A model generated the notes under the pieces. The model was given only the letters and a program-made list of their open reading frames with translations, did no database searches and was not told the origin of the DNA. Of a stretch of 47,511 nt of DNA, positions 27,679 through 47,441 are shown in pieces. The position numbers and the translations under genes are program-made. The DNA lies in NCBI GenBank assembly GCA_021324365.1, contig JAJPJE010000111.1:1-47511 (forward strand), in the 5' to 3' direction. The first letter of the stretch is position 1; each line of letters starts with the position of its first letter. Source of the stretch: Terriglobia bacterium. GTDB taxonomy: Bacteria; Acidobacteriota; Terriglobia; Terriglobales; Acidobacteriaceae.

Positions 27679-28677
27679 TCACATCTTTGTCTTCAGGACC
27701 TTGGTTTTTTTCCGTGGGATCATTTTGCTGTTTGCCCATCGTTGGATCGCTTTTTTCCTGGACTCGAGCTGCATGGCTCTGTCCGAGTCACCGGCGTCCC
27801 GACGTTTGTGCATCACAAGGGCCGAGCCCTCGCTAAAGTGGAGCGGATCTCTCAAGTTCTGTAATTCTCGGTAGTAATAAAGCGGTGTCGGATGCCTTCC
27901 GTTGAACCTTAGCTCTTTCAGAAAGTCGATCTCCTCCTGGGTCGCGCCACCCTCGACGGCCAAATGCTTCAGGAACTCCTTGAGGCCTGGTTGTTCTTCA
28001 GGGCGGACATATTCCTTTTCCACAAACTCAAATTTTTTTGCGTAGCCTGGAATGAGTCTCCGATTCAATACGATTTCCATGCCAAAGGTCGCCAAGTCGA
28101 TATCCCAAGATTCGATCAGCGGGTCCAAAAAAGAAGCGCAGTTCTCAACCGAGATGTTAAAGGCATCCGTGTCCAGGAACTCGAGGATGCCTACGCGCAT
28201 CGCTTCATAGCTCTTGCCGCTGAGGCGCGCTACCGAACGGAGCCAACTTTCACTCTGCAATTCTTCTTTGGCGATTTTCTTTACCACGTCCAAAAGCTTT
28301 TGCGTGACCAGGCGCTCCAGCTCACCAAAGGGCTGCTTCTCAAAGATGGCGCGGACCTGTTTTTCTTTTCCAGGCACACACTTGCGCAGAATCAACTCCC
28401 GGACTTCTTTGAACAATGGTTTGGGCGATTTCTCTAAATTTCGCTTCAATACTTCCTGGCGCTGATGTTCCACAAGATTTGTAAGCCGACCAGTGGGGAT
28501 TTTCAAGAATTTGCCCATCTTCTCGTAGATATCTGTTCGGCTAGGCTCCGGGGGCTGTTTTTTCCCCGTCAGCAGCTGCGAAATGTAGGATTCCGTGACG
28601 GCCGCTGCGGCGGCCAGATCTCGCTGCTCCAGTCTTAGTTCTTCCAACCGCTGTTTGATCAGTAGGCAAACATCCAC
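27679..28677 (-). CDS. XRE-family regulator, cassette A
   Basis: 332 residues from a GTG at 28677 (MDVCLLIKQRLEEL). Residues 1-60 are an XRE helix-turn-helix (EQRDLAAAAAVTESYISQLL). The remainder (FEKQPFGELERLVTQKLLDV, MRVGILEFLDTDAFN, SFLDPLIESWDIDL, LYYYRELQNLRDPLHF) is shared almost motif for motif with the protein at 40315-41202. Compared with that paralogue it has an extra Lys/Arg-rich tail of about 45 residues after DPLHF. It is divergent from the cassette it probably controls; a GTTAAT-type element lies between its RBS region and the shared promoter. Confidence 0.82.
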   Translation of the reverse strand: MDVCLLIKQRLEELRLEQRDLAAAAAVTESYISQLLTGKKQPPEPSRTDIYEKMGKFLKIPTGRLTNLVEHQRQEVLKRNLEKSPKPLFKEVRELILRKCVPGKEKQVRAIFEKQPFGELERLVTQKLLDVVKKIAKEELQSESWLRSVARLSGKSYEAMRVGILEFLDTDAFNISVENCASFLDPLIESWDIDLATFGMEIVLNRRLIPGYAKKFEFVEKEYVRPEEQPGLKEFLKHLAVEGGATQEEIDFLKELRFNGRHPTPLYYYRELQNLRDPLHFSEGSALVMHKRRDAGDSDRAMQLESRKKAIQRWANSKMIPRKKTKVLKTKM

Positions 28678-28738
28678 AGGCGCCCCCGCGCAATTAACTG
28701 GATTTGATTAATCCTGGAAAAATAGTCCCAGATTGGGC

Positions 28739-28767
28739 TTGACACGTCAAGTTAATTAACCTAATAT
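28739..28767 (+). promoter_or_regulatory. Promoter of cassette A with GTTAATTAAC operator
   Basis: TTGACA (28739-28744), a 17-base spacer, TAATAT (28762-28767). The spacer carries the perfect palindrome GTTAATTAAC (28751-28760). A further GGTTAAG follows the -10, and another AGTTAAT lies near 28812. The same layout precedes cassette B (41262) and hsp20 (37331). Confidence 0.75.
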
Positions 28768-28855
28768 GGTTAAGCTCCTCAGGAAACGTACAACTTATCT
28801 GTAACCAACTGAGTTAATCTTGTCCCACTCTTTAGCAGCAACCAAGGAGGTTGAC

Positions 28856-29176
28856 ATGTTTGCACGCAAAGTATCGATGCATTTGAAACCCGGCGGCGCC
28901 GCGGATTTCAAGCAAAAAATCGAGTCCGACGTCATTCCGGTGTTGCGCAAGCAGAAGGGGTTCCTAGACGAAATCACCTTTCTGTATCCGAGCGGGAAAG
29001 AGGTCCACGCCTTTAGTTTGTGGGAAACCGCCGAGGATGCGGAGGCTTACAGTCGCCAAGCCTACCCCGGAGTCGCAAAACTGCTGGCATCCGTGATTGA
29101 GGGTGTACCTCGAGTACAAACCTACGAGGTCCTGAACTCAAGTTTCCATAGGGTGGCGGCCGCGACAGCGGTTTGA
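28856..29176 (+). CDS. ABM-like (dimeric alpha-beta barrel) protein, cassette A
   Basis: 106 residues from the ATG at 28856, directly after AAGGAGGTTGAC. It reads MFARKVSMHLKPGGAADFKQ, then GFLDEITF, AFSLWETAEDAEAYSR and VQTYEV, the pattern of the antibiotic-biosynthesis-monooxygenase-like ferredoxin fold. Enzyme activity is unproven for such orphan members; many bind haem or small aromatics. First gene of the plus-strand part of cassette A, paralogue of 41380-41700. Confidence 0.8.
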   Translation: MFARKVSMHLKPGGAADFKQKIESDVIPVLRKQKGFLDEITFLYPSGKEVHAFSLWETAEDAEAYSRQAYPGVAKLLASVIEGVPRVQTYEVLNSSFHRVAAATAV

Positions 29177-29259
29177 AACTTAGCGGTTTCGCCATTAGAG
29201 GGGGCGGCCTGGTTCGCCCCTTTAGTGCCCAAGCCACACAGCGTCAACAAGAATTGTCT

Positions 29260-30150
29260 ATGTTCATAAGCGCTACAAAATGGGCGAGGGACATCCCCGC
29301 AACGTGTAAAGCGGCCCTGGAAAGCGAGGCCAGCTTCCGCAGGTTAGTCGAAACCGTTGCAACGCCGATATTCGTCAGTTACGGCGGCGCGCTCCACTAC
29401 GTCAATCAAGCCGCAGAAGCAATCACCGGGTACTCGCGAGAAGAACTCTCCTCAATGAATTTCTGGGATCTTGTCTATCCTGAGGGTCGAGAACCAGCCG
29501 GACTCCCTTTGCAACGTGAGGTCAGGATCGTCACGAAAAATGACGAGGAGCGCTGGTTGGAGATTAGCGCGGCAGCCTTTGAGTTTGATGGGGAAGCAGC
29601 AACGCTGATTTCGGCCTTCGACCTTACTGAGCGCAAGAGACTGGAAGCCCAAACCCATCTTTTGGCTTCTACCGATCCCCTCACCGGCCTAGGCAACTAT
29701 CGGCGCCTGATTGACGCCCTGCAGGCGGAGATCGAGCGTTCCGGCCGTACTGGACGACCCTTCGCGATTCTGCTGCTTGACTTGGATGGGCTGAAAAAAA
29801 TCAACGACTGCTACGGACATCTGGTTGGCAGCGAGGCACTGTGCCGCGTCGCCGCGGTGCTCCGTGTATTTGGCCGCTCCATCGATACGGCGGCACGCTA
29901 CGGTGGCGATGAATTTGCGGTCATTCTTCCGGAAATAACAACACCTGCCGCTGCTTGGCACGTGGCGTCGCGCGTCCGTAGTCGGTTAGGACAGGATGGC
30001 CTGGAGCCGTGTCTTTCTGCGAGCGTCGGAGTTGCCGTGTGTCCTCAAGATGGTGAGACGGTTGAGGCCCTGCTGCGCGAAGCAGACCGTAAGCTGTATG
30101 CGATGAAGTGCCGGGACGTCGAGACCGATTCATTGCTCACCGTGACGTGA
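29260..30150 (+). CDS. PAS-GGDEF diguanylate cyclase
   Basis: 296 residues from the ATG at 29260 (MFISATKWAR); the RBS is weak and a TTG at 29173 is the alternative. Residues 30-145 form a PAS domain (SFRRLVETVATPIFVSYGGA, HYVNQAAEAITGYSREEL). Residues 155-290 form a GGDEF domain with DPLTGLGNYRRL, LLDLDGLKKIND and the intact signature YGGDEFAVIL. It should make c-di-GMP from GTP. No RxxD-type inhibitory site is evident before GGDEF. The gene lies inside cassette A and has no counterpart in cassette B, so it was either gained by A or lost by B. Confidence 0.9.
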   Translation: MFISATKWARDIPATCKAALESEASFRRLVETVATPIFVSYGGALHYVNQAAEAITGYSREELSSMNFWDLVYPEGREPAGLPLQREVRIVTKNDEERWLEISAAAFEFDGEAATLISAFDLTERKRLEAQTHLLASTDPLTGLGNYRRLIDALQAEIERSGRTGRPFAILLLDLDGLKKINDCYGHLVGSEALCRVAAVLRVFGRSIDTAARYGGDEFAVILPEITTPAAAWHVASRVRSRLGQDGLEPCLSASVGVAVCPQDGETVEALLREADRKLYAMKCRDVETDSLLTVT

Positions 30151-30207
30151 TTTCGCTGTGCGGATCGGACGCAAGAGTTCTCCGGGAACTTCGACAAAGG
30201 AGCATGT

Positions 30208-30474
30208 ATGGAATTGCTTTGGTGGATTTTGGTGGGATTGGTTACTGGTTGGTCGCCCGGAAAAGCTATGAAGGGCAACGGTTACGGTCCACTGATCGGC
30301 GTTGCCATGGGTATCTCCGGAGCCGTAGCGGGTGGGCTGCTTACAAAATCCGCCGGCTTTAATGGCTACCGAGGAAGTATTGCAGCGACTCTCGCTGCCA
30401 CGACTGGCGCAGCCCTTCTGACGTTGCTCGCGGGTTTCGTAAATGGCAGAAGAATGTACGCTCGGCAAGTCTAG
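30208..30474 (+). CDS. GlsB/YeaQ/YmgE-type small membrane protein, cassette A
   Basis: 88 residues with three predicted membrane segments (LLWWILVGLVTGWSPGKAMK, LIGVAMGISGAVAGGLL, TLAATTGAALLTLLAGFVNG). The GWxxGKxMKGxGYGP motif after the first segment is typical of the transglycosylase-associated/GlsB family of stress-induced inner-membrane proteins. The RBS AAAGGAGCATGT precedes the ATG. Paralogue of 41802-42068. Confidence 0.85.
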   Translation: MELLWWILVGLVTGWSPGKAMKGNGYGPLIGVAMGISGAVAGGLLTKSAGFNGYRGSIAATLAATTGAALLTLLAGFVNGRRMYARQV

Positions 30475-30500
30475 TCCTCACCCAGGCATGGAGGTTTCAA

Positions 30501-31016
30501 GTGTCAGAGATTACTAGCACCAGGACTGTCTTCATCAGAGAAGGCACGCCATTGCCCACAGAGCTTTCGATCGAAAGCGACGCGTTTGTGCCTGGCTGGC
30601 GGCTTGTCAAAATAGATCGGCAAGCGCTAACCCGCGAAATTGAAAGAGCCAACTGGAACTTTTTCTATCTGGCAGGCCAAATCCGGACAATCGTCTTCGG
30701 ACGCGGAGGAGTAGGAAGTCTGCGGCGGGCCATAAAGCGTATTGCGGCTAAGCAGGAAAGCCAATGCTTTAGGTTTAACTCGCTCGAGATTACCAGGATC
30801 ACCTCGATATGGTTTCTAGGCATCCCTCTGACGAGTGTTACCGCACACTCTCGCCATATACAACTCGGTAGCGGTCTGATTACTGCAAAGGATCTGTCTC
30901 GAGGATCGTTAAAGGGGATACCATCCGCGCGAGCTGGCCAGCAGGGGCAGGTGGTCGCAAAACCATACGCGGCAGTTATCTCGAGTTCTGAGAAATTCTT
31001 AGGAGGCGTGCAATGA
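30501..31016 (+). CDS. Unknown protein of the paralogous cassettes (copy A)
   Basis: 171 residues from a GTG at 30501, with GGAGG upstream. Shared with 42213-42596 are TVFIREGTPLP versus TILIRESTLLP, ANWNFFYLAGQIRTIVFG versus ANWTFLCVGREIRTTVFG, and FNSLEITRI versus FNSLEITRV. The copy here has an additional 45-residue C-terminus that is Ser/Gly/Ala rich. No known family recognised. Its stop overlaps the start of the secreted-protein gene (ATGA). Confidence 0.7.
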   Translation: MSEITSTRTVFIREGTPLPTELSIESDAFVPGWRLVKIDRQALTREIERANWNFFYLAGQIRTIVFGRGGVGSLRRAIKRIAAKQESQCFRFNSLEITRITSIWFLGIPLTSVTAHSRHIQLGSGLITAKDLSRGSLKGIPSARAGQQGQVVAKPYAAVISSSEKFLGGVQ

Positions 31017-31684
31017 AAACGATGCGCAGCGCGGTTCTTTGCTTTGTCGTTATGATTCTTACGGCGCCAATGCTCCATGCGCAGGATTTTTCCAAATACC
31101 GGAATTTTTCACTCGGAACAAATCTCGCAGCGGTTCTAAAGCATACGGACCAGAGGTTGCTCGATGTAAAGGCTACCCACGATGGTTCTGTGCTGTTTCA
31201 GGAGTTGACCTGGCATCCGACCGGCTTTGGGGCTTCGTCCCGTTCGGAGGGCGTGGATGAGCTTGTTTTTTCGTTTTACAAAGGCGAGCTCTACAAGATG
31301 GCTGTCACCTACGATCGCGCCTCGACCGAAGGGCTTACGGCGGACGATATGGTGAAATCGATTTCCACGAAATATGGCCCGGCAACGAGCATTGCGCTGG
31401 AGATTGACGCCGACGCGAACGAGCCATATACAATGCGAGGAAAACCAGTCGCTTCTTGGGAAGACTCGCAGTATTCCCTAAGTCTTTTGCGATCTTCGTA
31501 CTCCAATGCCTTTGAGCTAGTCATTTACTCCAAACGAGTCGCTGCAGAAGCGGATGCGGCCCTCGCGCAAGTAGTGAAACTCGACGAGCAAGAAGCTCCC
31601 CAAAAAGCAATCGAGCGTCAGAAGAAGGAAGCGGATGCCATGGAGCTTACTCGGCAAAAAAACCAGAAAAGCTTTCGCCCATAG
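31013..31684 (+). CDS. Secreted protein of the paralogous cassettes (copy A)
   Basis: 223 residues with a cleavable signal peptide (MKTMRSAVLCFVVMILTAP, cleavage after HAQ). The mature part has DFSKYRNFSLGTNLAAVLKH, FSFYKGELYKMAVTYD, STEGLTADDMVKSIS and a charged coiled-coil-like end closing with QKNQKSFRP. The same closing residues and motifs occur in 42747-43421. Probably periplasmic; function unknown. TAGGAGGCGTGCA precedes the ATG. Confidence 0.8.
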   Translation: MKTMRSAVLCFVVMILTAPMLHAQDFSKYRNFSLGTNLAAVLKHTDQRLLDVKATHDGSVLFQELTWHPTGFGASSRSEGVDELVFSFYKGELYKMAVTYDRASTEGLTADDMVKSISTKYGPATSIALEIDADANEPYTMRGKPVASWEDSQYSLSLLRSSYSNAFELVIYSKRVAAEADAALAQVVKLDEQEAPQKAIERQKKEADAMELTRQKNQKSFRP

Positions 31685-31719
31685 TTCCCGCCTTTAGATG
31701 GTAGTAGCCAGGAATTCTT

Positions 31720-31977
31720 ATGGAGGCCCTCTTGCGTGTCTTTTGGGAAAGAACGGGCGTTTTGGGGCCCATTTATCGCTTGGCAGGCCAAGGCCTGAGC
31801 GACGTGGACATTGCGATCAAGCTGAAGCTCACCGAAATCAAAGTCCAGGAATGCGTAGCTTGGATATTGCATTTTCTGAAGCTCACGGACCGGATCGAAC
31901 TCATACAGTACGCATCCGTTCGGGCAATCGCTCCGTGTCCTGGTTTTGGGAATCGGACAGGTCGATCAGCAAGATAG
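31720..31977 (+). CDS. Small LuxR-like HTH protein (copy A)
   Basis: 85 residues from the ATG at 31720. By alignment with the paralogue at 45564, the real start may be the TTG at 31732, which has GGAGG five bases before it and the same following residues (RVFWE). The body GPIYRLAGQGLSDVDIAIKL, KLTEIKVQECVAWILHFL and RIELIQYA is a four-helix GerE/LuxR-type DNA-binding domain without any sensor part. The glycosyltransferase gene begins 8 bases after its stop. Confidence 0.75.
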   Translation: MEALLRVFWERTGVLGPIYRLAGQGLSDVDIAIKLKLTEIKVQECVAWILHFLKLTDRIELIQYASVRAIAPCPGFGNRTGRSAR

Positions 31978-31984
31978 GAAACTG

Positions 31985-34399
31985 ATGTCGGTGCCGAAGA
32001 CAATTTCTCAACTAACGGGTCCAAACGTGCTTGACGTTCCGCACGACCTCAAGGAGATTGAACTTCCATACGGTCATTCCGACGTTGATCTACTGGCTGT
32101 CGAAGAAAGATCTGCACCTCCGATGCATCCACGGCCAATACTGCCAAGCAGGATCGCCGTCGTTGGAAACTATCTACCAAGGAAGTGTGGAATCGCCACC
32201 TTTACGACGGATCTGTGCGACGCGATTCACTCTGAATATAGCGCTACCGAGCTCTTGGCGTTACCGGTCAACGATACCGAAGAAGGCTACAGTTACCCCT
32301 CGCGGATACGATTCGAGCTTTCTCAAGACGATTTAGCCTCGTACCGGCAAGCCGCTGACTTCTTGAATTTTAGCAATATTGATTTGGTTTGCCTGCAACA
32401 TGAATACGGAATTTTTGGTGGACCGGCCGGAGCTCATATCCTGGAACTCATGCGCCGACTAAAGATACCAATTGTTACCACGCTGCATACGGTTCTGCGC
32501 GAGCCAAATCTAGATCAACGCATGGTGATGGAGGAGATTGCGGCTTTGTCGGACCGCCTGATTGTCATGAGCCGACAATCCGCTGATATCTTGGACGAGG
32601 TATTCCTAGTCTCCCCCGAAAAGATCGATCTCATTCCACACGGCATCCCCGATATGCACTTCACCGACCCTAATTTTTATAAGGATGGTTTCGGAACGGA
32701 AGGGAAAGATGTCTTGCTCACGTTTGGATTGCTCTCACCGAACAAGGGCATCGAAAACGTAATCCAAGCTCTGCCTAGCATCCTGTCGCGTCACAGCAAT
32801 GCTGTTTACATGATTTCCGGTGTCACTCACCCGCATGTTTTACGACAAGAGGGCGACAAATATCGATTGTACTTGCAGAAATTGGCGAGAGACCTCGGGG
32901 TTGAAGCCAGTGTGATCTTCCGGAATCGATTCGTCAGCCCTCAAGAGCTCGTGGAATTGATCGCTGCAGCAGACATTTATATCACTCCCTACAAGCACAA
33001 AGGACAAGTCGTTTCCGGGACCCTGGCGTATGCCTTGAGCGCCGGGAAAGCAATCATCTCCACCCCCTATTTGCATGCGATCGAATTGTTGGACGATGAG
33101 CGCGGCGTGCTTGTTCCATTCGATGATCCACAAGCCATTGCCGATAATACGATAGCTCTATTGGACAACGGAACCGCGCGTCATGCGATGCGAAAGCGTG
33201 CGTACCTCTATGGCAGAAACATGGTTTGGGATCGCGTGGCGCAGCAATACATGGGGAGCTTTAAACGCGTGTACAACGAGCGCTTACGGAATCCACGTGC
33301 AACCTTTTCGGCGCAAAACACTGAAAAGGCTCTCGACCGCCTTCCGGCCATCAAATTGGATCATTTGCATCGGATGACAGACGATACGGGAATTCTGGAA
33401 CACGCGGTCTTTGTGGTCCCGAACTATCCGGAGGGATACAGCACGGACGACAATGCGCGGGCACTCATCGTCGCAATACTTCTCGAAGAGTTTGGGAGCA
33501 GCGCTCCAGCCGGTGCCCTGGACCTAGCCTCTCGTTATCTAGCTTTTCTGTGGCTGGCCTTCGACCCAACAAGCAAAAGGTTTCGAAACTGCCTGAGTTA
33601 CGAACGCCACTGGCAGGAGCCCGAAGGCTCCCAAGACAGTCACGGGCGGGCATTGTGGGGACTCGGGACCGTTCTCGGCAGATCCAACGATCCCGGATTA
33701 AGGGGGGCTGCGGGACGTTTGTTTGAGTTAGCCATTCCCGCGGCTGTGGAGTTCAAAAGCCCCCGGGCGTGCGCGTTCGCCTTGCTGGGACTGGAGGAGT
33801 ATCTAGACTCGTTCCCAGGCGACCGGGCCGCGCAGGGCGCTGCAGATGCACTTGCGAATCGCCTACTGAATTCCTACCGCACCATCCATTCAACCGACTG
33901 GAAGTGGTTTGAAAACGGCCTTGCATATTCCAATGCTCGTTTGCCGCAGGCATTGATAAGAGCGGGAATGCGCAGCGGAAGTGATGAGATGGTTTCGACG
34001 GGGCTCGAAGCGTTAGGCTGGCTGACGACGGTTCAACGCTGCGAAATCAAGGGTCACTTCGTACCTATCGGATCGCACGGGTTCTACTCAAAGAAAACGG
34101 AAAAGGCTCGTTTCGATCAGCAACCCGTCGAAGCCTGCGCAGTAGTTTCCGCGTGTCTGCAAGCGTATCGTGCCACGGGAAAGGGCCGCTGGCGGAAAGA
34201 GGCGTGGACCGCCTTCAATTGGTTTCTGGGAGATAACGATCTCCAGATTGCACTCTACGATCCCAGCACCGGCGGATGTCGAGACGGCCTGCATCCGGAC
34301 CGCGCCAACGAGAACCAGGGAGCAGAATCGACGCTTTCTTTCTTGATGGCGCTCCTCGAAATGCGCAAGTTGGAGCAAGGTATGGAGAGCAATTCGTGA
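31985..34399 (+). CDS. GT4 glycosyltransferase fused to an (alpha/alpha)6-barrel-like domain
   Basis: 804 residues from the ATG at 31985, preceded by AGGAAACTG. Residues 50-410 are a GT-B fold glycosyltransferase of family GT4. They show RIAVVGNYLPRKCGIATFTT, HEYGIFGG, LIPHGIPD, TFGLLSPNKGIENVIQAL, and the nucleotide-sugar-binding region SGTLAYALSAGKAII. Residues 430-795 read as an (alpha/alpha)6 toroid (EGYSTDDNARALIVAILLEE, SQDSHGRALWGLGTVL, NGLAYSNARLPQALI). The overlapping next gene is a GH130 enzyme, so the pair probably builds and trims a mannose-containing oligo- or polysaccharide. Substrate is not visible in the sequence. Confidence 0.85.
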   Translation: MSVPKTISQLTGPNVLDVPHDLKEIELPYGHSDVDLLAVEERSAPPMHPRPILPSRIAVVGNYLPRKCGIATFTTDLCDAIHSEYSATELLALPVNDTEEGYSYPSRIRFELSQDDLASYRQAADFLNFSNIDLVCLQHEYGIFGGPAGAHILELMRRLKIPIVTTLHTVLREPNLDQRMVMEEIAALSDRLIVMSRQSADILDEVFLVSPEKIDLIPHGIPDMHFTDPNFYKDGFGTEGKDVLLTFGLLSPNKGIENVIQALPSILSRHSNAVYMISGVTHPHVLRQEGDKYRLYLQKLARDLGVEASVIFRNRFVSPQELVELIAAADIYITPYKHKGQVVSGTLAYALSAGKAIISTPYLHAIELLDDERGVLVPFDDPQAIADNTIALLDNGTARHAMRKRAYLYGRNMVWDRVAQQYMGSFKRVYNERLRNPRATFSAQNTEKALDRLPAIKLDHLHRMTDDTGILEHAVFVVPNYPEGYSTDDNARALIVAILLEEFGSSAPAGALDLASRYLAFLWLAFDPTSKRFRNCLSYERHWQEPEGSQDSHGRALWGLGTVLGRSNDPGLRGAAGRLFELAIPAAVEFKSPRACAFALLGLEEYLDSFPGDRAAQGAADALANRLLNSYRTIHSTDWKWFENGLAYSNARLPQALIRAGMRSGSDEMVSTGLEALGWLTTVQRCEIKGHFVPIGSHGFYSKKTEKARFDQQPVEACAVVSACLQAYRATGKGRWRKEAWTAFNWFLGDNDLQIALYDPSTGGCRDGLHPDRANENQGAESTLSFLMALLEMRKLEQGMESNS

Positions 34400-35418
34400 T
34401 GAGCAGTCTGGCTGCGAAATCTTTTGATAATAAAGCGGTGATGGAACAACACGAGACCCTATTTCGCCGGCATGCCGCCAACCCCATCCTTAGCGGGAAA
34501 GATTGGCCCTACCCGATGAACACCGTCTTCAACGCTGGCGCGACGCTGTTACCGGACGGCTCGACGCTGTTATTGTGTCGCGTGGAGGATCGCCGTGGCC
34601 TTTCTCACCTGTGCGTCGCGCGCTCGGTGAACGGCGTCGATCAGTGGCAAATCGATAGCGAACCGACCCTCATGCCCGACGAGGAGAAATATCCAGAAGA
34701 GTTGTGGGGCATCGAAGATCCGCGCATTACGTACGTTCCGGAACTGAAGCAATATGCCATAGCCTACACGTCATATTCGCGAGGTGGTCCCGGTGTCTCC
34801 CTGGCACTTACAAAAGACTTCCATGCGTACGAAAGACTTGGCGTCGTTATGTCGCCGGACGACAAAGATGCAGCGCTCCTGCCCAGAAGGATCAACGGAC
34901 TGTGGGCGTTGATCCATCGGCCCATGACGCCCCTCGGAGCTCACATCTGGATCTCTTACTCCCCTGATCTGCGACATTGGGGCAACCACAGACTTATGCT
35001 GGAAGCGCGGCGCGGCGCTTGGTGGGATGCGAACAAGATTGGAATGTCGCCGCCACCAATTGAAACCCCAAGGGGTTGGCTTATGATTTACCACGGCGTC
35101 CGAAGGACGCCATCGACTTCCATATATCGGCTTGGGCTTGCCCTCTTCGATACTGAACAACCAGAAAAATGCTTGATTCGAGGAGATTCCTGGATGTTCG
35201 CCCCCAAAGCGGAATACGAACGTCATGGAGACGTTCAGGACGTTGTGTTCCCTTGCGGCTATACGGTTGCGTCCGACGGGGACACAATCAATCTCTACTA
35301 TGGTGCCGCTGATTCGAGCATTGCGTTGGCGCACGGCAGCGTTCGCGGCCTTTTGGCGTGGCTCGACGCGAATGGCCATTCCGACCACGCTCACGATCGG
35401 CGAAAGCGGCATGGGTAG
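34399..35418 (+). CDS. GH130 family mannoside phosphorylase/hydrolase
   Basis: 339 residues from the ATG at 34399, which overlaps the glycosyltransferase stop by one base (TGATG). The frame is open back to 34276, but that part lies inside the upstream gene. Family 130 features are NPILSGKDWPYPMNTVFNAG, the IEDPRIT motif with the general-acid Asp, DKDAALLPRRINGLWALIHR and the five-blade repeats ISYSPDLRHW, MIYHGV and LYYGAADSSIALA. GH130 enzymes phosphorolyse or hydrolyse beta-mannosides. Coupling to a GT4-toroid fusion suggests that both act on the same glycan. Confidence 0.87.
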   Translation: MSSLAAKSFDNKAVMEQHETLFRRHAANPILSGKDWPYPMNTVFNAGATLLPDGSTLLLCRVEDRRGLSHLCVARSVNGVDQWQIDSEPTLMPDEEKYPEELWGIEDPRITYVPELKQYAIAYTSYSRGGPGVSLALTKDFHAYERLGVVMSPDDKDAALLPRRINGLWALIHRPMTPLGAHIWISYSPDLRHWGNHRLMLEARRGAWWDANKIGMSPPPIETPRGWLMIYHGVRRTPSTSIYRLGLALFDTEQPEKCLIRGDSWMFAPKAEYERHGDVQDVVFPCGYTVASDGDTINLYYGAADSSIALAHGSVRGLLAWLDANGHSDHAHDRRKRHG

Positions 35419-35649
35419 CGCATTATCGGTAATCGTGGGTTGGTTACCATGACGAGCTTCGAAAACTGATTTAAGCAACACTTTGAAGTTTCGTGGATAC
35501 CCAAGGAAACGATATTGTTGGCTATAGCCACTCGTAAGGGTGCGAATGTCAAAGTCGCCGGAACTTAGTCAAACAGAGACGGCGCTGTAGGGTGTCCACG
35601 ACGCCCGGCTGAATATTTTCTCGGCCAGCAAATGCCCTTCGGAGAGGAA

Positions 35650-35772
35650 ATGCCGTGCAGTCCGCGCAAGAATGCCATCTGGCTGAGGATGTTTCACGAA
35701 TTGATCGAACTCCTGGAATGCGACCACAACAAGGACCGCCAGCACTTGGATAAGGTGGAGTTCGATGTATAA
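35650..35772 (+). CDS. 40-aa hypothetical protein
   Basis: Short frame from the ATG at 35650, with GGAGAGGAA directly before it. The translation has a basic start and a helical stretch (WLRMFHELIELLECDHNKD). The next small gene overlaps its stop (ATGTATAA). The overlap and RBS argue that it is real. Function unknown. Confidence 0.4.
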   Translation: MPCSPRKNAIWLRMFHELIELLECDHNKDRQHLDKVEFDV

Positions 35773-35902
35773 GGATAAAGCGAGCAGGGATGCCGGCAAC
35801 TGCCCCAACTGCAACAAGCCTTCAGCTTACGGAGCCTTCGATCTGCGTTATCAAGGTGATTGCCATCATCAATTCAGTCTGCGGCCTTTTTTTTTCCACT
35901 AG
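35765..35902 (+). CDS. 45-aa putative zinc-ribbon protein
   Basis: Starts at 35765 inside the end of the 40-aa frame. It reads NCPNCNKPSAYGAFDLRY and then DCHHQFSLRP, so C13, C16, C33 and H34/H35 could bind one zinc ion. Translation would be coupled to the upstream frame. A run of T at 35887-35895 encodes the FFF near its end. Function unknown. Confidence 0.4.
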   Translation: MYKDKASRDAGNCPNCNKPSAYGAFDLRYQGDCHHQFSLRPFFFH

Positions 35903-35944
35903 TACTCTATCTCAATAATCCAGAAAGCCCTTTGTGCTTATTGC

Positions 35945-36052
35945 ATGAATCAGATGGAATGTTTGGAAGAACGAACGGATGATTTGACCCAGAGAAATGT
36001 CTTATTCGAGAGAGGCGTCGCGCTGTACTCGGCGCGTCACGCATTAAAATAG
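35945..36052 (+). pseudogene. Truncated copy of the small helical protein at 26122
   Basis: 35 codons from the ATG at 35945 (MNQMECLEERTDDLTQRNVL). It matches the N-terminal 25 residues of 26122-26340 in pattern and in much of the DNA, then diverges and stops at TAG. It is probably a decayed duplicate, or a short paralogue if expressed. Confidence 0.5.
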
Positions 36053-36071
36053 CAGATAGCACCAGGATCGA

Positions 36072-36467
36072 ATGCAGCAACCACTCGACGATTTTACGAT
36101 CGCCCTCCCGCCCTCGACCGATATGGGCGCTTGCATCTTGAAAGTGTATAGCGACCTAGAGCGACTATGGAGGATGGTCGCGAGGTATGCGATGACCTCT
36201 CCCCTCACGATCACAGTACTCGATAACAAAGCTGAACGCGTGCGGTCGATTTGCGGCAATCATCGTCAAGCCACTAGCTGGGAACTAAAGAACGAAATCG
36301 AGCCGGCCGTGGCGCGTACCGCCGAGTTCCCGCTCACGATACGCGTGCAAGATGCCCGAGGAAATATTTTGAAATTGAGAGTGGAACTCGAACTAGCGGT
36401 GACTGACTCGGTTTGCGTCAGGCCCATATACCTATACTGGGAAAATTGGGGATTTGCACGCCGCTGA
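36072..36467 (+). CDS. Hypothetical protein
   Basis: 131 residues. The pattern (FTIALPPSTDMGACILKVY, SPLTITVLDNKAERV, FPLTIRVQDARGNILKLRVE) is mainly beta-strands and could be a small sandwich domain. No family recognised. A modest RBS (ATAGCACCAGGATCG) precedes the ATG. Confidence 0.45.
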   Translation: MQQPLDDFTIALPPSTDMGACILKVYSDLERLWRMVARYAMTSPLTITVLDNKAERVRSICGNHRQATSWELKNEIEPAVARTAEFPLTIRVQDARGNILKLRVELELAVTDSVCVRPIYLYWENWGFARR

Positions 36468-36490
36468 GCATTTAGCGATAATTTCGTCAA

Positions 36491-36616
36491 ATGGCGAAGA
36501 AGAATTCAGCAGCGGCCAAGAAGCGGACCAAGAAAGAAGGCGAACTGCGAGCGCGCAAACTGGCTGAAGCGCGATGGATTAAGGGGAAAAAGAAAGACAC
36601 CATCCCGAAGTCCTGA
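36491..36616 (+). CDS. 41-aa basic protein
   Basis: MAKKNSAAAKKRTKKEGELR, then RKLAEARWIKGKKKD. Very Lys/Arg/Ala-rich, as in small nucleic-acid-binding or histone-H1-like peptides. It lies 23 bases after the preceding hypothetical gene. No strong RBS. Confidence 0.4.
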   Translation: MAKKNSAAAKKRTKKEGELRARKLAEARWIKGKKKDTIPKS

Positions 36617-36716
36617 CTCGTTCCCAGCGCAATAAGCAGGCGAGAATCCCGTTGCAAATTGCGCAAGATCGGCTCCCGATCCCGAAAGTTCAGCTACGGC
36701 AGGTGTTGGTCCTTAC

Positions 36717-37124
36717 TCATGACTGAGCGACTGCTCCTTTGCCTTTCTCTGTCAGCGCGTAGAAGTCGCCACCCAACGCGTCCAGCATGCCTGCGCGTAC
36801 CAACTCATCAATAGCAGCTAGCACGCGCAGCCGTTCTTCAGGTTCGTTGCCCGCAGCCTCGAAGAGCACATGAAGGTCCAAGCGATCCTGCCCCATTTCT
36901 CCGAATAGTCGCAGAACCCGCAAGGAGAGAGTTGAGTTAGACGTCGCCCCGGATCCGTAGAAGCTGGCGACAACCTGATTCTTCGGTCGGTCGAAGACCA
37001 CAAACTCCCCTTCGTTGTGGTGTGAAAGCTTTTTCGCCAACCACTTTCCCGATTTCAGGTCCTTCGCGGCTTCAATCCAAAGCATCCTACCAGCCGCATC
37101 TCTCTTGAAGATATCGTGTGGCAT
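36717..37124 (-). CDS. Hypothetical protein with winged-helix-like C-terminus
   Basis: 135 residues from the ATG at 37124 (MPHDIFKRDAAGR); the frame is open to 37232, but the extra residues are low in coding character. Residues 60-135 (LSLRVLRLFGEMGQDRLDLH, ERLRVLAAIDELVRAGML, FYALTEKGKGAV) have the pattern of a winged helix ending in the TEKG wing seen in MarR/PadR-like proteins. It might be a regulator; the direct neighbour is hsp20 on the other strand. The family is not recognised. Confidence 0.55.
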   Translation of the reverse strand: MPHDIFKRDAAGRMLWIEAAKDLKSGKWLAKKLSHHNEGEFVVFDRPKNQVVASFYGSGATSNSTLSLRVLRLFGEMGQDRLDLHVLFEAAGNEPEERLRVLAAIDELVRAGMLDALGGDFYALTEKGKGAVAQS

Positions 37125-37285
37125 GGTCTTACGTCCGATGCAAATACGTAGCATCAAAAGTAGTCCAGCGCGTTTGGCCTTGCAAGAGCAGGATTTGGCA
37201 AAAGCTGATGAAGACTGAAAATTAATGGGCATAAAAGGCCGGCGAAACGCCTAAGGCTGCTTCGCCGCGAATCCAACGAGTGACG

Positions 37286-37359
37286 GTTAACTTATAGTGG
37301 TTAAGAATATAAAATGCTGTAAGATGCTACTTGACAAGATGAGTTAAGTAACTTAAGCT
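37286..37359 (+). promoter_or_regulatory. hsp20 promoter with GTTAA-type operator
   Basis: GTTAAC (37286) and GTTAAG (37300) lie upstream of TTGACA (37331-37336); after a 17-base spacer comes TAAGCT (37354-37359). The spacer holds GAGTTAAGTAACTTAAG (37341-37357), placed exactly like the operators in the promoters at 28739 and 41262. Confidence 0.65.
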
Positions 37360-37452
37360 GGCCAAGTACGAATAGAGGCAGACGGCAATCTGAGCTGACA
37401 CGAGTTATCTGAAAATTGCCCTTTGGCCAACTCTTAAATGGAGGGCACTGAA

Positions 37453-37947
37453 ATGAGAACAATCAATCGCTGGGAACAACCGTTCCGCGGGGCTACGACC
37501 CTGCGGGAACAGATCAATCGCGTGTTTGGCGATGTGGTGAGACGCACGGGCGAGGAGTCGAATTTGACCCCTTGGGCCCCGGAGGTCGACATCTACGAGA
37601 CCGAAAATGAACTGGTGGTCAAGGCGGACCTGCCGGATATGAATCCGCAGGACCTGGACATCCGCGTGGAGAACAACATCCTCACCATTCGCGGCGAACG
37701 CAAGTTCGACAAAAAGGTGAACGAGGACAACTACCTGCGCATCGAGCGCAGCTATGGCTCATTCAGCCGCAGCTTTTCGCTGGCGAACTCGGTGAAATCG
37801 GAGGCCATCAGGGCCGATTATCAGAATGGCGTCCTGACGCTAAGCATCCCGAAGCGCGAGGAAGCAAAGCCCAAGCAGATCAAGGTGAACGTGACAACGA
37901 ATCTGATGGGAACGCATGCGATGGCGGCGGTGGGTGGGGCTCGCTAA
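37453..37947 (+). CDS. Small heat-shock protein Hsp20
   Basis: 164 residues from the ATG at 37453, with GGAGGGCACTGAA before it. The alpha-crystallin domain spans about residues 42-140 (PEVDIYETENELVVKADLPD, LDIRVENNILTIRGERK, RSYGSFSRSFSL, ADYQNGVLTLSIPK). It should form ATP-independent holdase oligomers. The short variable C-terminus lacks a clear I-x-I motif; VNVTTNLMG stands in its place. Located within the stress region, with a promoter like those of cassettes A and B. Confidence 0.93.
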   Translation: MRTINRWEQPFRGATTLREQINRVFGDVVRRTGEESNLTPWAPEVDIYETENELVVKADLPDMNPQDLDIRVENNILTIRGERKFDKKVNEDNYLRIERSYGSFSRSFSLANSVKSEAIRADYQNGVLTLSIPKREEAKPKQIKVNVTTNLMGTHAMAAVGGAR

Positions 37948-37982
37948 AGAAAGCGATACGTAGTGCTGGGGGGAACATATCC

Positions 37983-38037
37983 GGGTTTCCCAGGAGTTGG
38001 CTTCGTAGTTGGTTTCCGACTGCTAGCCTGGGAACCC
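37983..38037. repeat. Large inverted repeat downstream of hsp20
   Basis: GGGTTTCCCAGG (37983-37994) and CCTGGGAACCC (38027-38037) can pair with one bulged base; the loop is 32 bases. There is no T run after it, so it may act in mRNA stability rather than as a simple terminator. Confidence 0.5.
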
Positions 38038-38149
38038 TCACCACGTGCCCGTTTGTAGAGTTACGCCCTGAAGAATGTTCATATCCTTGGCTCTGGGGAG
38101 CACACATCGCTAGGGTCGAGCGTGACCAGGGAAGTTGCGAGTTTGAGCC

Positions 38150-38350
38150 ATGACTCCCTCACTTTACGCACTCTTTTTCCGTGTCCGTAGTTTGCGTGGG
38201 TTCGTGCCTGTTTTGCTGAGAAAGTTGCTAGGGATGAAACCACGCGACGACGAGTTCGCGCCACAGCGGATGTGCCCGTCTTGTGGACTCATCACCCCGC
38301 GTTCCAAACGATATTGCTTGGAATGCGGCGAATCTCTCAGACCAGCGTAG
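38150..38350 (+). CDS. Small zinc-ribbon protein
   Basis: 66 residues. After an amphipathic, hydrophobic N-terminal half (FFRVRSLRGFVPVLLRKLLG), the end carries CPSCGLITPRSKRYCLECGE, a CxxC-x13-CxxC ribbon of the zinc-ribbon_2 kind. The N-terminal helix may attach it to the membrane. RBS weak. Function unknown. Confidence 0.55.
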   Translation: MTPSLYALFFRVRSLRGFVPVLLRKLLGMKPRDDEFAPQRMCPSCGLITPRSKRYCLECGESLRPA

Positions 38351-38376
38351 AAGTCGATGCGGAAAGGACAACTAAG

Positions 38377-38688
38377 ATGCCATTCAGTGGAAATTGTCAT
38401 TCGTTCGATTCGTCCACGTTGGATTCTTCGACGTTGAAGGCGCTAAATGATGTCGGGATGGTCTATGGGCTGTTTAAGGAAGACCTGCCATTCCGCCCCG
38501 ACCATTACACCTGTCTGTTTGTGGGACAGACCAACAACTTGAGGGCGCGCCTTCTTGAGCATTACAGCAATCGTTCGATTGCTGGTGTCACACATTTCTT
38601 TGCCGAAACCAGTGCGACCGAACAGCAGCAAAAGCTGCGTGAGAAAGAACTAATCGCTGAATTCAACCCATCCGGAAACAAAAACTAG
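38377..38688 (+). CDS. GIY-YIG-like nuclease domain protein
   Basis: 103 residues from the ATG at 38377, with GGAAAGGACAAC upstream. GMVYGLFKE stands for GIY and LFVGQTNNLRARLLEH for YIG-x(7)-R. The later KELIAEFNPSGN has the Glu and Asn expected at the end of the catalytic core. As a single small domain it resembles UvrC-like or YhbQ-like proteins. Both tyrosines of the classic motif are partly replaced (VYG and LFVG), so activity is uncertain. Confidence 0.7.
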   Translation: MPFSGNCHSFDSSTLDSSTLKALNDVGMVYGLFKEDLPFRPDHYTCLFVGQTNNLRARLLEHYSNRSIAGVTHFFAETSATEQQQKLREKELIAEFNPSGNKN

Positions 38689-38813
38689 CGAGGATTGCTA
38701 AACCGTGGTACGCGCTAAGACATGTACTTGAGGTTCGGATCCCCCCTCCACCAGTCCCTTTGGATTCGACCACATCAGGCCATATAAGCCATTGCAATAT
38801 ATGTAGTGGACGG

Positions 38814-39017
38814 TCACTTTCTCTTCACGAGCGCGAGATACTTACGGTGTTCTTTTGCAGCATCTCGTAGATGTTGAACGAGTTCTCGCAAGGCATGTTT
38901 CTTCTGTTCGTTTTCCAGGTCTGCGATCGTTACTTCCAACCTGCCGGCCCGCTCGTCGATCTTCTTCACTTCATCTTCGAGATAGTCGATATGAGTATTC
39001 CAGGAGTCTTCAACCAC
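38814..39017 (-). CDS. Small coiled-coil protein
   Basis: 67 residues from a GTG at 39017, with GGGGGAGGG before it; the frame is open to 39140, but that would overlap hflX. Nearly all helical with heptad patterns (IDYLEDEVKKIDERAGRLEV, HLRDAAKEHRKYL). It lies 59 bases downstream of hflX on the same strand and may be the end of the XRE-hflX transcript. Function unknown. Confidence 0.5.
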   Translation of the reverse strand: MVEDSWNTHIDYLEDEVKKIDERAGRLEVTIADLENEQKKHALRELVQHLRDAAKEHRKYLALVKRK

Positions 39018-39076
39018 TCTATTGCCCTCCCCCTCGCTGCGTTCCGCCACACCACACACGGAATTCGTCGGAGTTC

Positions 39077-40318
39077 TTACGACGCGAGCCGTCCTTTCAA
39101 CGCAGTAACGGTGCCGGAGTTCGCGTTTACCTTGAGACAAACGCCTTTGTCCTCGTAAGACTCGCTGAGCACGTGCATGTTCTTGCGGATGCCGGCGAGC
39201 ACGCCTTCCTTGCCGTAGGGAACGACGAGCTCGACCTGAGCCATGTCATCGAGAAAGAGACTGACGAGACGGGTGCGAAGTGCCTCGACGTCCTTGGGGT
39301 TCAGCGCGGACATCGCAATGGCCTCGGGGAACTCTTTTTTCAGCAATGCCTTTTGCGAAATATTAACGGCGTCGATTTTGTTTAGAATCAGAAGAGACCG
39401 GAGCTTTCCTGCCCCAATTCCTTCGAGCACTTCTTTCGTCACCTGAATGTGGGAGCGCAACGCCGGATCCGACGCATCCACGATGTGGAGCAGAAGGGAG
39501 GCGTCCAGCGCTTCATCGAGAGTCGACCTGAATGAGGCCACCAGATCGTGGGGAAGATTTCGAATGAAACCAACCGTGTCGGAAACGAGAATCCGAGGTT
39601 GAGTCTCCGGCTGCAACGCTCGCACGGTGGTATCCAGCGTCGCAAACAGCTGATCGGCCACGAGGACTTCGCTCGCGGTGAGCGCTCGCATGACTGAAGA
39701 CTTTCCGGCATTGGTGTAGCCGACGATGGCGACTTTGGGCAAACCATCGCGATGACGACGGCGCTCGGCTTGCTCTCGATGGACCACTTTGAGTTCTCGG
39801 TGCAGCGCGCTGATTCGGTCCCGCACTTCTCGGCGCTCGATCTCGTGAAAGGACTCGCTGACCCCTCGTCCGCCACGTCCCCCACCCTTTCGCTCTTTGG
39901 CCCCCGACACGCTCTCGCGGGGCGCGAGGTACTTGAGCCTTGCCAACTCCACCTGAAGGCGCGCTTCTTTGGTGCGAGCATGCCGATGAAAAATCTCGAG
40001 GATCACGGCCGGCCGATCGTAAACCCCCACGCCGGTCGCTTCTCTAATGTTTCTGACCTGTGTGGGGGTTAGTTCGTGATCGAATACCACGCTTTCGGCC
40101 TTGTAGGGAGCTTTCACGAGCTCGCTCAGCTGTTCCAGTTTTCCCGGACCGATGAGAGACGCGGCCGTAGGGGACTGTAGTTTCTGCGTGAGCGTTCCGA
40201 CGACGTCCCACCGCAGCGTTTCAATGAGTTGCCTCAGTTCCTGAAGCGACGCATCGTGCTCTTCGGCCGGTGTCTTCTGGAGATGCACATCGATAAGGAT
40301 GGTGGCCGGCCTACTCAT
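39077..40318 (-). CDS. hflX: GTPase HflX
   Basis: 413 residues. The N-terminal HflX domain (LTPTQVRNIREATGVGVYDR, LEIFHRHARTKEARLQVELA) is followed by a Gly-rich linker and the G domain. The G domain has G1 GYTNAGKSS, G3 DTVGF and G4 NKID. HflX binds ribosomes and splits stalled 70S ribosomes after heat or antibiotic stress. Its ATG overlaps the stop of the XRE regulator of cassette B (ATGA), so translation is coupled to that gene. This linkage is unusual compared with the common hfq-hflX context. Confidence 0.93.
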   Translation of the reverse strand: MSRPATILIDVHLQKTPAEEHDASLQELRQLIETLRWDVVGTLTQKLQSPTAASLIGPGKLEQLSELVKAPYKAESVVFDHELTPTQVRNIREATGVGVYDRPAVILEIFHRHARTKEARLQVELARLKYLAPRESVSGAKERKGGGRGGRGVSESFHEIERREVRDRISALHRELKVVHREQAERRRHRDGLPKVAIVGYTNAGKSSVMRALTASEVLVADQLFATLDTTVRALQPETQPRILVSDTVGFIRNLPHDLVASFRSTLDEALDASLLLHIVDASDPALRSHIQVTKEVLEGIGAGKLRSLLILNKIDAVNISQKALLKKEFPEAIAMSALNPKDVEALRTRLVSLFLDDMAQVELVVPYGKEGVLAGIRKNMHVLSESYEDKGVCLKVNANSGTVTALKGRLAS

Positions 40319-41202
40319 TTTCGACCCGAATTCTTACCCGGCGGTCGATGGTCCGCTCGAAAATGGAGCGGGTCTCTGAGGCTTTGCAACTCCCGGTAAT
40401 AATAAAGGGAAGTGGGGCGTTTCCCGTTGAACGTCAACTTCTTTAGAAGCTCGATCTCTTCCGTGGTGGCAGTTCCGCTGAGGGAACGATCCTTAAGGAA
40501 TTCTTTGAACCCCGGCTCTGGCTCTAGCTGGCCAGGCCCCGTTTCAACAAAAGCAAATTTCCTGGGATCTCCCGAAGCTATTCTTCGATTTAACACAATT
40601 TCCATACCGAAGGTCGTCAGATCAACGTCCCAGGATTCAATCAGTGGATCAAGAAAGGAAACGCAGTTTTCAGGCGACAAGCTGAAAACGTCTGTGTCCA
40701 GGAACTCCAGGAGGGTAACCCGCATTTGTTCGTAGCTTCGGCCGGCAAGTCGAGCCACCAAGTGCAGCCAGTTTTCGCTGTTCAATTCTTCTTTGACAAC
40801 CTTCTTGACCACGTCCAAAAGCTTTTGTGTAACGAGGCGTTCGAGCTCTCCGAAGGGCTGTTTCTCAAAGATTAGGCGCACCTGCTGTGCTTTATCAGCT
40901 GCGCACTTGCGGAGAATCAATTCTCGAATCTCTGCAAACATCGGCGCGGGCGGGCCTGCCAAGCCTTTCTTCAATTCCTCCCTGCGCTGATGCTCGGCCA
41001 GCTTCGCAAGCCTATCGCTCGGAAGCTTCAAGAACTTCGCCATTTTCTCGTAGATATCTGTTCGGTCAGGCGCGGGAGGCAGCTTCTTGCGAGCCAACAG
41101 CTGGGAAATGTAGGACTCCGTAACCCTCGCGGCGGTCGCGAGATCTTTTTGCTCAAGCCCCAATTCTTCCAGACGTCGTTTAATCACTAAGCAAACGTCC
41201 AC
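40315..41202 (-). CDS. XRE-family regulator, cassette B
   Basis: 295 residues from the GTG at 41202, chosen to match the GTG start of its paralogue; an ATG directly before it (41205) would leave GGAGG only two bases away. HTH at residues 1-60 (EQKDLATAARVTESYISQLL). Shared with 27679-28677 are FEKQPFGELERLVTQKLLDV, LEFLDTDVFSLS, SFLDPLIESWDVDL and LYYYRELQSLRDPLHF. It ends soon after DPLHF, without the long basic tail of copy A. GTTAAT lies between its RBS and the promoter region, suggesting autoregulation. Confidence 0.82.
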   Translation of the reverse strand: MDVCLVIKRRLEELGLEQKDLATAARVTESYISQLLARKKLPPAPDRTDIYEKMAKFLKLPSDRLAKLAEHQRREELKKGLAGPPAPMFAEIRELILRKCAADKAQQVRLIFEKQPFGELERLVTQKLLDVVKKVVKEELNSENWLHLVARLAGRSYEQMRVTLLEFLDTDVFSLSPENCVSFLDPLIESWDVDLTTFGMEIVLNRRIASGDPRKFAFVETGPGQLEPEPGFKEFLKDRSLSGTATTEEIELLKKLTFNGKRPTSLYYYRELQSLRDPLHFRADHRPPGKNSGRK

Positions 41203-41261
41203 CATGGCCTCCAGCAGGATTAACTGCATTACTTAAGTACAAAAATAATCGCAGATTGTAC

Positions 41262-41290
41262 TTGACAATGCAAGTTAATTCACCTAGATT
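41262..41290 (+). promoter_or_regulatory. Promoter of cassette B with GTTAATT operator
   Basis: TTGACA (41262-41267), 17-base spacer, TAGATT (41285-41290). AAGTTAATTCACC sits in the same part of the spacer as AAGTTAATTAACC in cassette A. AGTTAAC follows the -10 and GGTTAAT lies near 41334. Confidence 0.72.
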
Positions 41291-41379
41291 AGTTAACTGA
41301 CTGAGGGACTTGTTCAGAGCCTTAACCATAGGGGTTAATCTGAATCGCTCCTTTGGCATCGAGAACCAAGGAGAGTGTC

Positions 41380-43421: not shown

Positions 43422-43489
43422 TATCGGCCTGGGGTTAAAGAGAGTTACTTGTTCGAGTTTTGGAACGGATTAAATGGAGGTCAACGAAA

Positions 43490-43810: not shown

Positions 43811-43866
43811 GTTTGAGATTTCGAAGATCGTGAACGGCAGTAAGCGTCAATCACCCAGGAGGGTGA

Positions 43867-45504
<1,638 letters not shown>

Positions 45505-47327: not shown

Positions 47328-47404
47328 TTCACGAGGATGATTGCGCGACCTTTTCGGCTGTAAGCGACACCAGATGCAGCACTTATTTGATTTTTACTGC
47401 CTTC

Positions 47405-47441
47405 TTAACAGCCGAATGCTCTACCGTTGAGCTACCGGGGA
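47405..47441 (-). pseudogene. 5' half of a tRNA-Asn gene, broken at the anticodon loop
   Basis: On the complement: acceptor strand TCCCCGG, D arm TAGCTCAACGGTAGAGC, anticodon stem start ATTCGG and loop CTGTTAA (anticodon GTT). After this the sequence runs GAAGGCAG and no anticodon 3' stem, T arm or acceptor 3' strand follows in the next several hundred bases. The gene is therefore split exactly at the point favoured by tRNA-targeting integrases. Confidence 0.7.

Follow-up and report, generated by a model that had tools for sequence, protein, structure and literature searches.

In the HrcA-CIRCE system, groESL and other chaperone genes are repressed by HrcA through an inverted repeat (the controlling inverted repeat of chaperone expression, CIRCE) located near the promoter. 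The control regions of lambdoid phages rely on repressors of the XRE class, CI and Cro, with three operators and back-to-back promoters, and in Actinobacteria ClgR serves as an activator of clp genes, with an operator other than the one considered here. A fourth system is that of DdrO and IrrE in the radiation/desiccation response of Deinococcus; two reports describe DdrO as having an XRE helix-turn-helix (HTH) at its N-terminus, a three-helix dimerisation domain at its C-terminus, a stress regulon that includes its own gene and, as operator, a palindrome at or over the promoter (PMC8072749, PMC5552922). Here we analyse two genes for XRE proteins, XRE-A and XRE-B, together with three promoters of similar build that precede gene cassettes A and B and hsp20, within a stretch of 47,511 nt (the window) from contig JAJPJE010000111.1 of assembly GCA_021324365.1, a Terriglobia bacterium of the Acidobacteriaceae. 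We consider it quite probable that the three promoters are copies of one portable control module recognised by a repressor of the XRE class with likeness to DdrO, whose gene stands divergently beside two of them.

The promoter module and its probable operators

A preliminary description of this DNA had proposed a shared operator in three promoters, each made of TTGACA, a 17-base spacer and a -10, with (A/G)AGTTAA(T/G)T four bases after the -35. Exact matches to TTGACA-N4-RAGTTAA were indeed found in the window at 28739, 37331 and 41262, all on the + strand, and at each of them the -35 is separated by 17 bases from the -10 (TAATAT, TAAGCT and TAGATT, respectively). The genome-wide search that had been suggested was run on the whole assembly (4,444,665 bases in 125 contigs, 95% complete) and the motif proved rare, with exactly these three places, none outside the window, and no match for the backwards pattern. 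When up to two mismatches were allowed, the three composite matches in the window were unremarkable (21 of 100 shuffles reach three), and the AGTTAA hexamer alone was not enriched there (12 occurrences for 10.5 expected). The common element is real, but the GTTAA beside the -35 is only part of it: the conserved unit is an 18-bp dyad centred on the -10, of which the AGTTAA noticed earlier reads as the left flank.

This dyad, hereafter O1, consists of TTAACY, the -10 hexamer and RGTTAA. Its conservation was examined upstream of homologues of XRE-B, in the best 80 of 142 confirmed candidate loci. Regions of up to 330 bases before the XRE match, with at least about 250 present, were available for 75 of these loci (L005, L010, L045, L066 and L079 were too short) and for the two genes of the window, giving 77 regions. 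An O1 layout was scored when a TTAACY-N6-RGTTAA dyad with at least 8 of its 12 bases began 16-18 bases downstream of the first base of a -35-like box. It was present in 62 of the 77 regions, from several phyla, versus 22 of 3850 dinucleotide shuffles (0.6%). With a stricter cut at 10 of 12 bases, the numbers were 54/77 and 1/3850. The start of O1 lies 17 bases after that of the -35 in 52 of the 62 regions, 18 bases in nine and 16 in one. The N6 of O1 coincides with the -10 hexamer, in which A at the second position and T at the last are invariant (62/62), even though these positions were outside the search pattern. The promoter is, as judged from the sequence, of the sigma-70 type with its -10 as the centre of O1.

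In cassette A, the -35 (28739-28744, + strand, motif search) abuts a reverse TTGACG (28750-28745) facing XRE-A, and is followed by O1-A (TTAACC-TAATAT-GGTTAA, 28756-28773, + strand, dyad search), whose central -10 is at 28762-28767. Similarly, the -35 of cassette B (41262-41267, + strand, motif search) abuts a reverse -35-like TTGCAT facing XRE-B, and O1-B (TTCACC-TAGATT-AGTTAA, 41279-41296, + strand, dyad search) has its -10 at 41285-41290. In the whole assembly, TTAACY-N6-RGTTAA at up to one mismatch occurs at 12 places, a count that is not high because the backwards control gives 28. Four of the 12 are in the window contig, between 28694 and 41296, and this clustering has a binomial p of 6e-6 for the whole window and of 3e-8 for a 12.6-kb interval drawn around the sites themselves.

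The extra GTTAA copies reported nearby and in the leaders of both XRE genes are real as well, and correspond to two further sites. In 50/62 regions (about 2% under the null), an O2 dyad is found close to where the XRE gene begins, over the presumed start of its transcript, most often 61 bases before O1 (19/50). The target leader contains O3 in 42/62 (null again about 2%); its usual form is TGAACY-N6-GGTTAT with CTGAA next to it. In the window, O2-A (TTAACT-GGATTT-GATTAA, 28694-28711, dyad search) stands 62 bp before O1-A, where XRE-A begins. O2-B (41220-41237), at the start of XRE-B, is degenerate with only one good half, an intact TTAACT, and was read from the sequence, being under the score cut. 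The two O3 sites lie in the leaders and have a 5-base centre: O3-A (GTAACC-AACTG-AGTTAA, 28801-28817, + strand) is degenerate, was also read from the sequence and is under the O3 score cut, and O3-B (TTAACC-ATAGG-GGTTAA, 41322-41338, + strand) came from the dyad search.

The distance between O1 and O3 is 42-45 bases at 25 sites, 53-55 at 16 and 74 at one (L075). On a tree of the XRE proteins, with L075 and the B site of the window left out, one change suffices to explain the split between the 44 and 54 classes for the remaining 40 of 42 rows. This split therefore corresponds to a single event, and repeated evolution towards helical phasing was rejected on this ground. For the O2 distances, the classes are not clean, and six changes are required across 46 of the 50 rows (L024, L042, L075 and the A site of the window left out). 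Column counts showed that, in most regions, the -35 is abutted by a GTCAA-type box, which is a TTGAC in the opposite orientation, and that a -10 resembling GATTAT lies a further seventeen bases away. Transcription of the XRE gene and of its target thus seems to start from back-to-back promoters, and two promoters that abut in this way presumably cannot both be occupied.

A dyad on the -10 is a classical position for a repressor, and repression by the XRE protein seems likely. That the protein would instead be an activator, or a dual regulator like phage CI, so that the chaperone genes need it, is unlikely. Inverted half-sites do occupy the spacer between -35 and -10 as well (AAGTTAATTAACC), and activation in one direction is possible where three operators and overlapping divergent promoters are combined. 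However, the best conserved dyad is the one centred on the -10, where a bound dimer would block the polymerase, and the -35 is the consensus TTGACA in 61/62 regions, a count inflated because -35-like boxes formed part of the search; with such a -35, the promoter should need little help from an activator.

The information content of the aligned sites bears on whether the likeness of the three promoters could reflect common descent only, the region between XRE and the first gene of a cassette having been duplicated to cassette B and to hsp20 and not yet diverged, with no regulon at all. The two cassettes are paralogous (XRE-A and XRE-B share 70% identity over 284 residues), and the module of hsp20 resembles a copy of the same region. 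Across loci of several phyla, though, each base of the half-sites of the dyad holds 0.8-2.0 bits and both the second and the last position of the -10 hold 2.0, versus 0.1-0.3 for the three middle bases of the -10 and 0.2-0.8 for positions after the dyad (dyad and -35 columns were used in selecting the sites, -10 columns were not). In addition, the same O1 site precedes unrelated genes. We regard descent alone as very unlikely. A promoter matrix, trained on 52 of the XRE-divergent sites, gave 79 matches of at least 20 bits in 832,579 bp, some overlapping in register, and none in the reversed control; 69 of the 79 are divergent from an XRE gene.

Distribution and architecture of the XRE family

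XRE-A (27679-28677, - strand, 332 aa, divergent from cassette A) and XRE-B (40315-41229, - strand; the start used in the family corresponds to about 41205) score 22.4 and 24.4 bits, respectively, against the HTH_3 family of Pfam, which puts XRE-A just below the curated cut-off of 23 bits. Among 396 Acidobacteriota genomes, our own included, an XRE gene of this family is found in 16, belonging to 14 of 211 genera, and the genome of the window is the sole holder in its own family within this sample. The exact O1 promoter is present in 5 of the 16, each time at most 115 bp from the XRE match, and in none of the 380 others (Fisher's exact test, p = 5.5e-8, and 1.4e-6 without our own genome). The sites could belong to another regulator or be the signature of a sigma factor, with the XRE genes as bystanders that merely adjoin such a promoter region, XRE binding being a prediction, but an independent regulator would be expected to leave some exact matches among those 380 genomes, which makes this the most improbable of the alternatives.

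At up to two mismatches, O1 matches were found in 13 genomes: the five exact ones, G379 (one mismatch, beside an XRE gene) and seven without XRE gene, namely G312 (one mismatch) and G056, G124, G162, G212, G328 and G371 (two mismatches). The backwards control matched in six genomes; the inexact matches away from an XRE gene are therefore at background.

Relatives of XRE-B occur in records titled Acidobacteria, Gamma- and Betaproteobacteria, Nitrospirae, Gemmatimonadetes and Rokubacteria, and further ones in records titled Methylomirabilota, Krumholzibacteriia and Chloroflexi; most loci encode proteins 63-75% identical to XRE-B. The tree mixes phyla, with 11 changes for eight groups where the minimum possible is seven. 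Sporadic presence and phylum mixing suggest a horizontal spread of the gene, which may be mimicked by binning errors or paralogues, as nearly all rows are metagenome-assembled genomes (MAGs). Carriage by mobile elements was considered and dropped: a tblastn search with XRE-B found no match at E<=1e-5 among 50,697 records of phages or 72,556 of plasmids. Six members from Gemmatimonadota and Nitrospira (L054, L061, L078, L080, L081 and L083, two of them Nitrospira) have no O1 layout, and other GTTAAC-type repeats were seen there by eye; the operator arrangement seems to differ in these members.

XRE-B consists of the HTH, a middle region of about 130 residues (roughly 95-235) that is mainly helical, and a C-terminal three-helix unit. 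AlphaFold models built from 43 and 34 family members have a mean predicted local distance difference test (pLDDT) score of 76. The HTH matched known HTH folds (Z about 8), that of DdrO among them, and also that of ClgR. Once the HTH was removed, the top five Foldseek matches were all DdrO. In VIA-align, the C-terminal unit superposes on the DdrO dimerisation domain (6ro6) with Z 6.7 and 2.1 A over 54 of 55 residues, and the next non-DdrO rows covering this part have Z of about 2.5. At the sequence level, the ungapped score of the C-terminal profile against DdrO exceeded that of all shuffles (0/20,000), and hhalign gave E 3.7e-5, with a probability of 71%, over 35 columns. These columns include the place where IrrE cuts DdrO, between RIEL and RGKRP (PMC8072749), which is aligned to LRF and KGKRP, respectively. 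The C-terminal domain is thus predicted, with good but not complete confidence, to be DdrO-like. For the middle region, neither the whole model nor the part without HTH gave a Foldseek match at E<=0.001. A weak likeness of its helices to HipB and XRE domains (Z 2.7-3.4) was not used.

Predicted target genes and other features of the window

The hsp20 gene of the window (37438-37947, + strand, likely start 37453; PF00011, E 1.1e-25) is preceded by a region that repeats the spacings seen at XRE genes. A dyad equivalent to O2 (TTAACT-TATAGT-GGTTAA, 11 of 12 bases, 37287-37304, dyad search) lies 61 bp before the O1 position. The -35 (37331-37336, + strand, found by motif search and matrix) is followed by a degenerate O1 (GTAACT-TAAGCT-GGCCAA, 8/12, 37348-37365, + strand, found with the promoter matrix) with its -10 at 37354-37359, and an O3-like site (TGAGCT-GACACG-AGTTAT, 7/12, 37391-37408, + strand) follows 43 bp after O1. 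The closest relatives retain the upstream dyad, at 61 bp in L004, L005 and L006 and at 60 bp in L011, and L015 has a 10/12 version at 54 bp. We read the hsp20 promoter as a worn copy of the whole control region.

Inspection of the related loci with tblastn revealed 13 hsp20 copies in 12 loci, eight of which have TTGACA and a dyad of at least 6/12 at the O1 position (five of these at least 8/12). Genes for hsp20 stand directly behind O1 promoters in L011, L013, L015 (two), L020, which is titled a gammaproteobacterium, and L036 (by Pfam), in addition to the window. Those of L030, L050 and L057 stand after an ABM-like gene, and those of L061 and L080 have no such O1 promoter. A second hsp20 of our genome (G000:C7:60318-60614) matched neither the O1 promoter nor the dyad with the patterns applied. 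In L072, groES is immediately behind O1 and is followed by groEL (GroEL by Pfam), and in L032 a PAS-GGDEF protein (Pfam) is behind the promoter, its start being 236 bp after that of the -35. The related loci and the window together contain 77 distinct matrix matches scoring 17 bits or more; a reading frame was called downstream in 75 cases, and 54 of these frames resemble the ABM-like protein at their start. Near the XRE gene, relatives of the window proteins (tblastn, E<=1e-5) were detected in the 80 loci as follows: ABM-like 54, GroES 22, GroEL 17, PAS-GGDEF 13 and Hsp20 12. Because many contigs are short, these counts are lower bounds.

Cassette A of the window starts with an ABM-like small protein (28820-29176, + strand, likely start about 28857; Pfam ABM below its cut-off), followed by a PAS-GGDEF protein (29173-30150, + strand, Pfam). 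Cassette B also starts with an ABM-like small protein (41380-41700, + strand), and its distal genes (43460-45504, + strand) are groES (43490-43810, by Pfam) and groEL (43873-45504, from its sequence and tblastn likeness). Here groES is about 2.2 kb downstream of the promoter; its control from promoter B is inferred, the direct case being that of L072. On the other side, XRE-B overlaps by 4 bp a gene for a protein with HflX-type GTPase domains (Pfam), which we take to be hflX (39077-40318, - strand), and the two are probably co-transcribed. No HflX relative was found in the 80 related loci, many of them short. The single regulon that had been put forward for Hsp20, HflX, GroESL, cyclic di-GMP signalling and the small proteins is therefore supported as a prediction for hsp20, the ABM-like genes, groESL and the GGDEF genes, which carry the module, but not for HflX, which is linked locally only.

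By eye, leaders pair CCTTGG with CCAAGGAG across the Shine-Dalgarno sequence, and this prompted a test for RNA thermometers of the ROSE or fourU kind in the 65 of 77 leaders of suitable length. Mean pairing was 0.56 versus 0.69 in shuffles, with 22 of 65 leaders above their own shuffle mean, and this candidate was rejected. Before the ABM-like start, for example at 28840-28860, CAACC-AAGGA-GGTTG could place the Shine-Dalgarno sequence in the loop of a small hairpin, with no more sequestration than in shuffles. In L022 and L024 the leader stem seems, by eye, changed on both sides (GGACC/GGTCC and GACC/GGTC).

Elsewhere in the window, a defence-like island (6562-18657) encodes a HEPN_Swt1/DUF499 protein, a DUF1156 methyltransferase-like protein, a SNF2/NOV_C helicase and an XRE-M78 fusion. 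At 31946-35418 a GT4 glycosyltransferase-like protein precedes a protein of the GH130 family, and relatives of each occur in 5 of the 80 XRE loci. Around 47390-47450, the - strand resembles by eye the 5' half of a tRNA-Asn, possibly an integration scar; ARAGORN detected no tRNA gene in the window.

The predicted switch and its relation to known systems

In the mechanism that we propose, a dimer of the XRE protein would bind O1, O2 and O3, block RNA polymerase at the -10 and thereby shut the promoter, so that the protein would repress the chaperone cassettes and limit its own synthesis. Stress would weaken the repressor and release hsp20, the ABM-like cassettes and this copy of groESL, while also letting the repressor refill. 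Release could come from proteolysis as for DdrO, or from two routes of general knowledge, unfolding of the repressor by heat and titration of a chaperone, the latter as for HrcA.

Several observations weigh against this proposal. Descent accounts for part of the resemblance between cassettes A and B, which are paralogous. A simple promoter scan found promoter-like matches in 28600-41500 to be no commoner than in shuffles (7 versus 6.9), the reverse promoter of XRE-A has, by eye, a poor -10, and the O1 of hsp20 is worn, with just 6/12 bases in L004, L005 and L006 despite a near-perfect upstream dyad. The O1 layout as defined is missing from 15 of the 77 regions; four of these (L051, L053, L064 and L065) carry a matrix match of 22-44 bits there, but the other 11, including members of Gemmatimonadota and Nitrospira, have none. 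With a looser pattern and three mismatches, 7 of the 16 XRE genomes have a match beside the gene, one has it elsewhere and eight have none, which means that divergence or other spacings exist; the backwards control of this pattern also matches in several of the 16. As for the protein, no Foldseek match to DdrO reaches E<=0.001, a Z under 8 can, as the alignment tool cautions, reflect a common arrangement, the C-terminal piece or its profile found no DdrO among PDB sequences, and the whole-family profile found it there only at E 0.87-0.92. Finally, M78 proteins (IrrE-type, E<=1e-5) are present in 10 of the 16 XRE genomes versus 210 of 380 others (p = 0.62), a co-occurrence that does not support an IrrE-like partner; the M78 protein of the window (17473-18657) is the fusion located in the separate island.

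The regulon linking the module to the XRE family is nonetheless well supported as a prediction. With moderate confidence we further propose that it represents an undescribed class of chaperone repressor, combining an XRE domain, a DdrO-like dimerisation domain and a new, possibly sensing, middle, with a portable back-to-back module of three operators that spread across several phyla of soil bacteria and came to stand, by copying, before hsp20, groESL, ABM-like and diguanylate cyclase genes, alongside the HrcA system in the same cell. Among the literature matches listed, none dealt with this regulator or site, subscription journals being mostly outside the coverage. For groups known mostly from uncultured genomes, the proposal identifies a family of regulators together with the site that it probably binds and the genes that it would target, and it links the repressor fold of DdrO, known from the radiation response, to protein quality control. 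A concrete site and protein also exist in Acidobacteriaceae bacterium KBS 96 (L072), whose record title is not marked as a MAG, so that the prediction can be tested at the bench, and the abutting -35 boxes with their regular operators offer a natural switch for studying mutually exclusive promoters.

Like HrcA-CIRCE, the module is predicted to serve a repressor of groESL and chaperone genes with an inverted repeat near the promoter, but both the protein and the repeat are different. The XRE proteins had been thought to act in place of HrcA and CIRCE, which is not borne out. A search with the pattern TTAGCACTC-N9-GAGTGCTAA at up to three mismatches found no CIRCE on the contig of the window, including before its groESL. 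However, hrcA is present on another contig of the genome, with a 3-mismatch CIRCE some 440 bp upstream of the match, and the other groES of the genome, which is off the window contig, is preceded at about 120 bp by a perfect CIRCE. The XRE system therefore stands beside HrcA, not instead of it.

With the CI/Cro regions of lambdoid phages, the module shares the XRE class, three operators and back-to-back promoters, and negative autoregulation is expected here too; it differs in having abutting -35 boxes and a chaperone cassette as target, and in the lack of matches to XRE-B among the phage and plasmid records searched. ClgR is likewise an XRE-class regulator of protein quality control genes, but the structural likeness is confined to the HTH, and ClgR activates clp through its own operator.

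The closest parallel is with DdrO. Both have an N-terminal XRE HTH and a three-helix C-terminal dimerisation domain, and both combine a palindromic site at or over the promoter with a stress regulon that takes in the repressor gene, in our case as a prediction. DdrO has about 130 residues in two domains, whereas the XRE family has about 290-330, with some 130 extra residues between the domains, and showed no association with the M78/COG2856 protease family across the 396 genomes compared. The operator is 18 bp here (TTAACY-N6-RGTTAA) and 17 bp for the radiation/desiccation response motif (RDRM) of DdrO, a comparison of lengths and not of letters. DdrO controls DNA repair genes, and the targets here are chaperones. 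The idea of a regulon put forward in the preliminary description would then be largely right, with its operator corrected, and the locus may be seen as repression of the XRE/DdrO type applied to chaperones.

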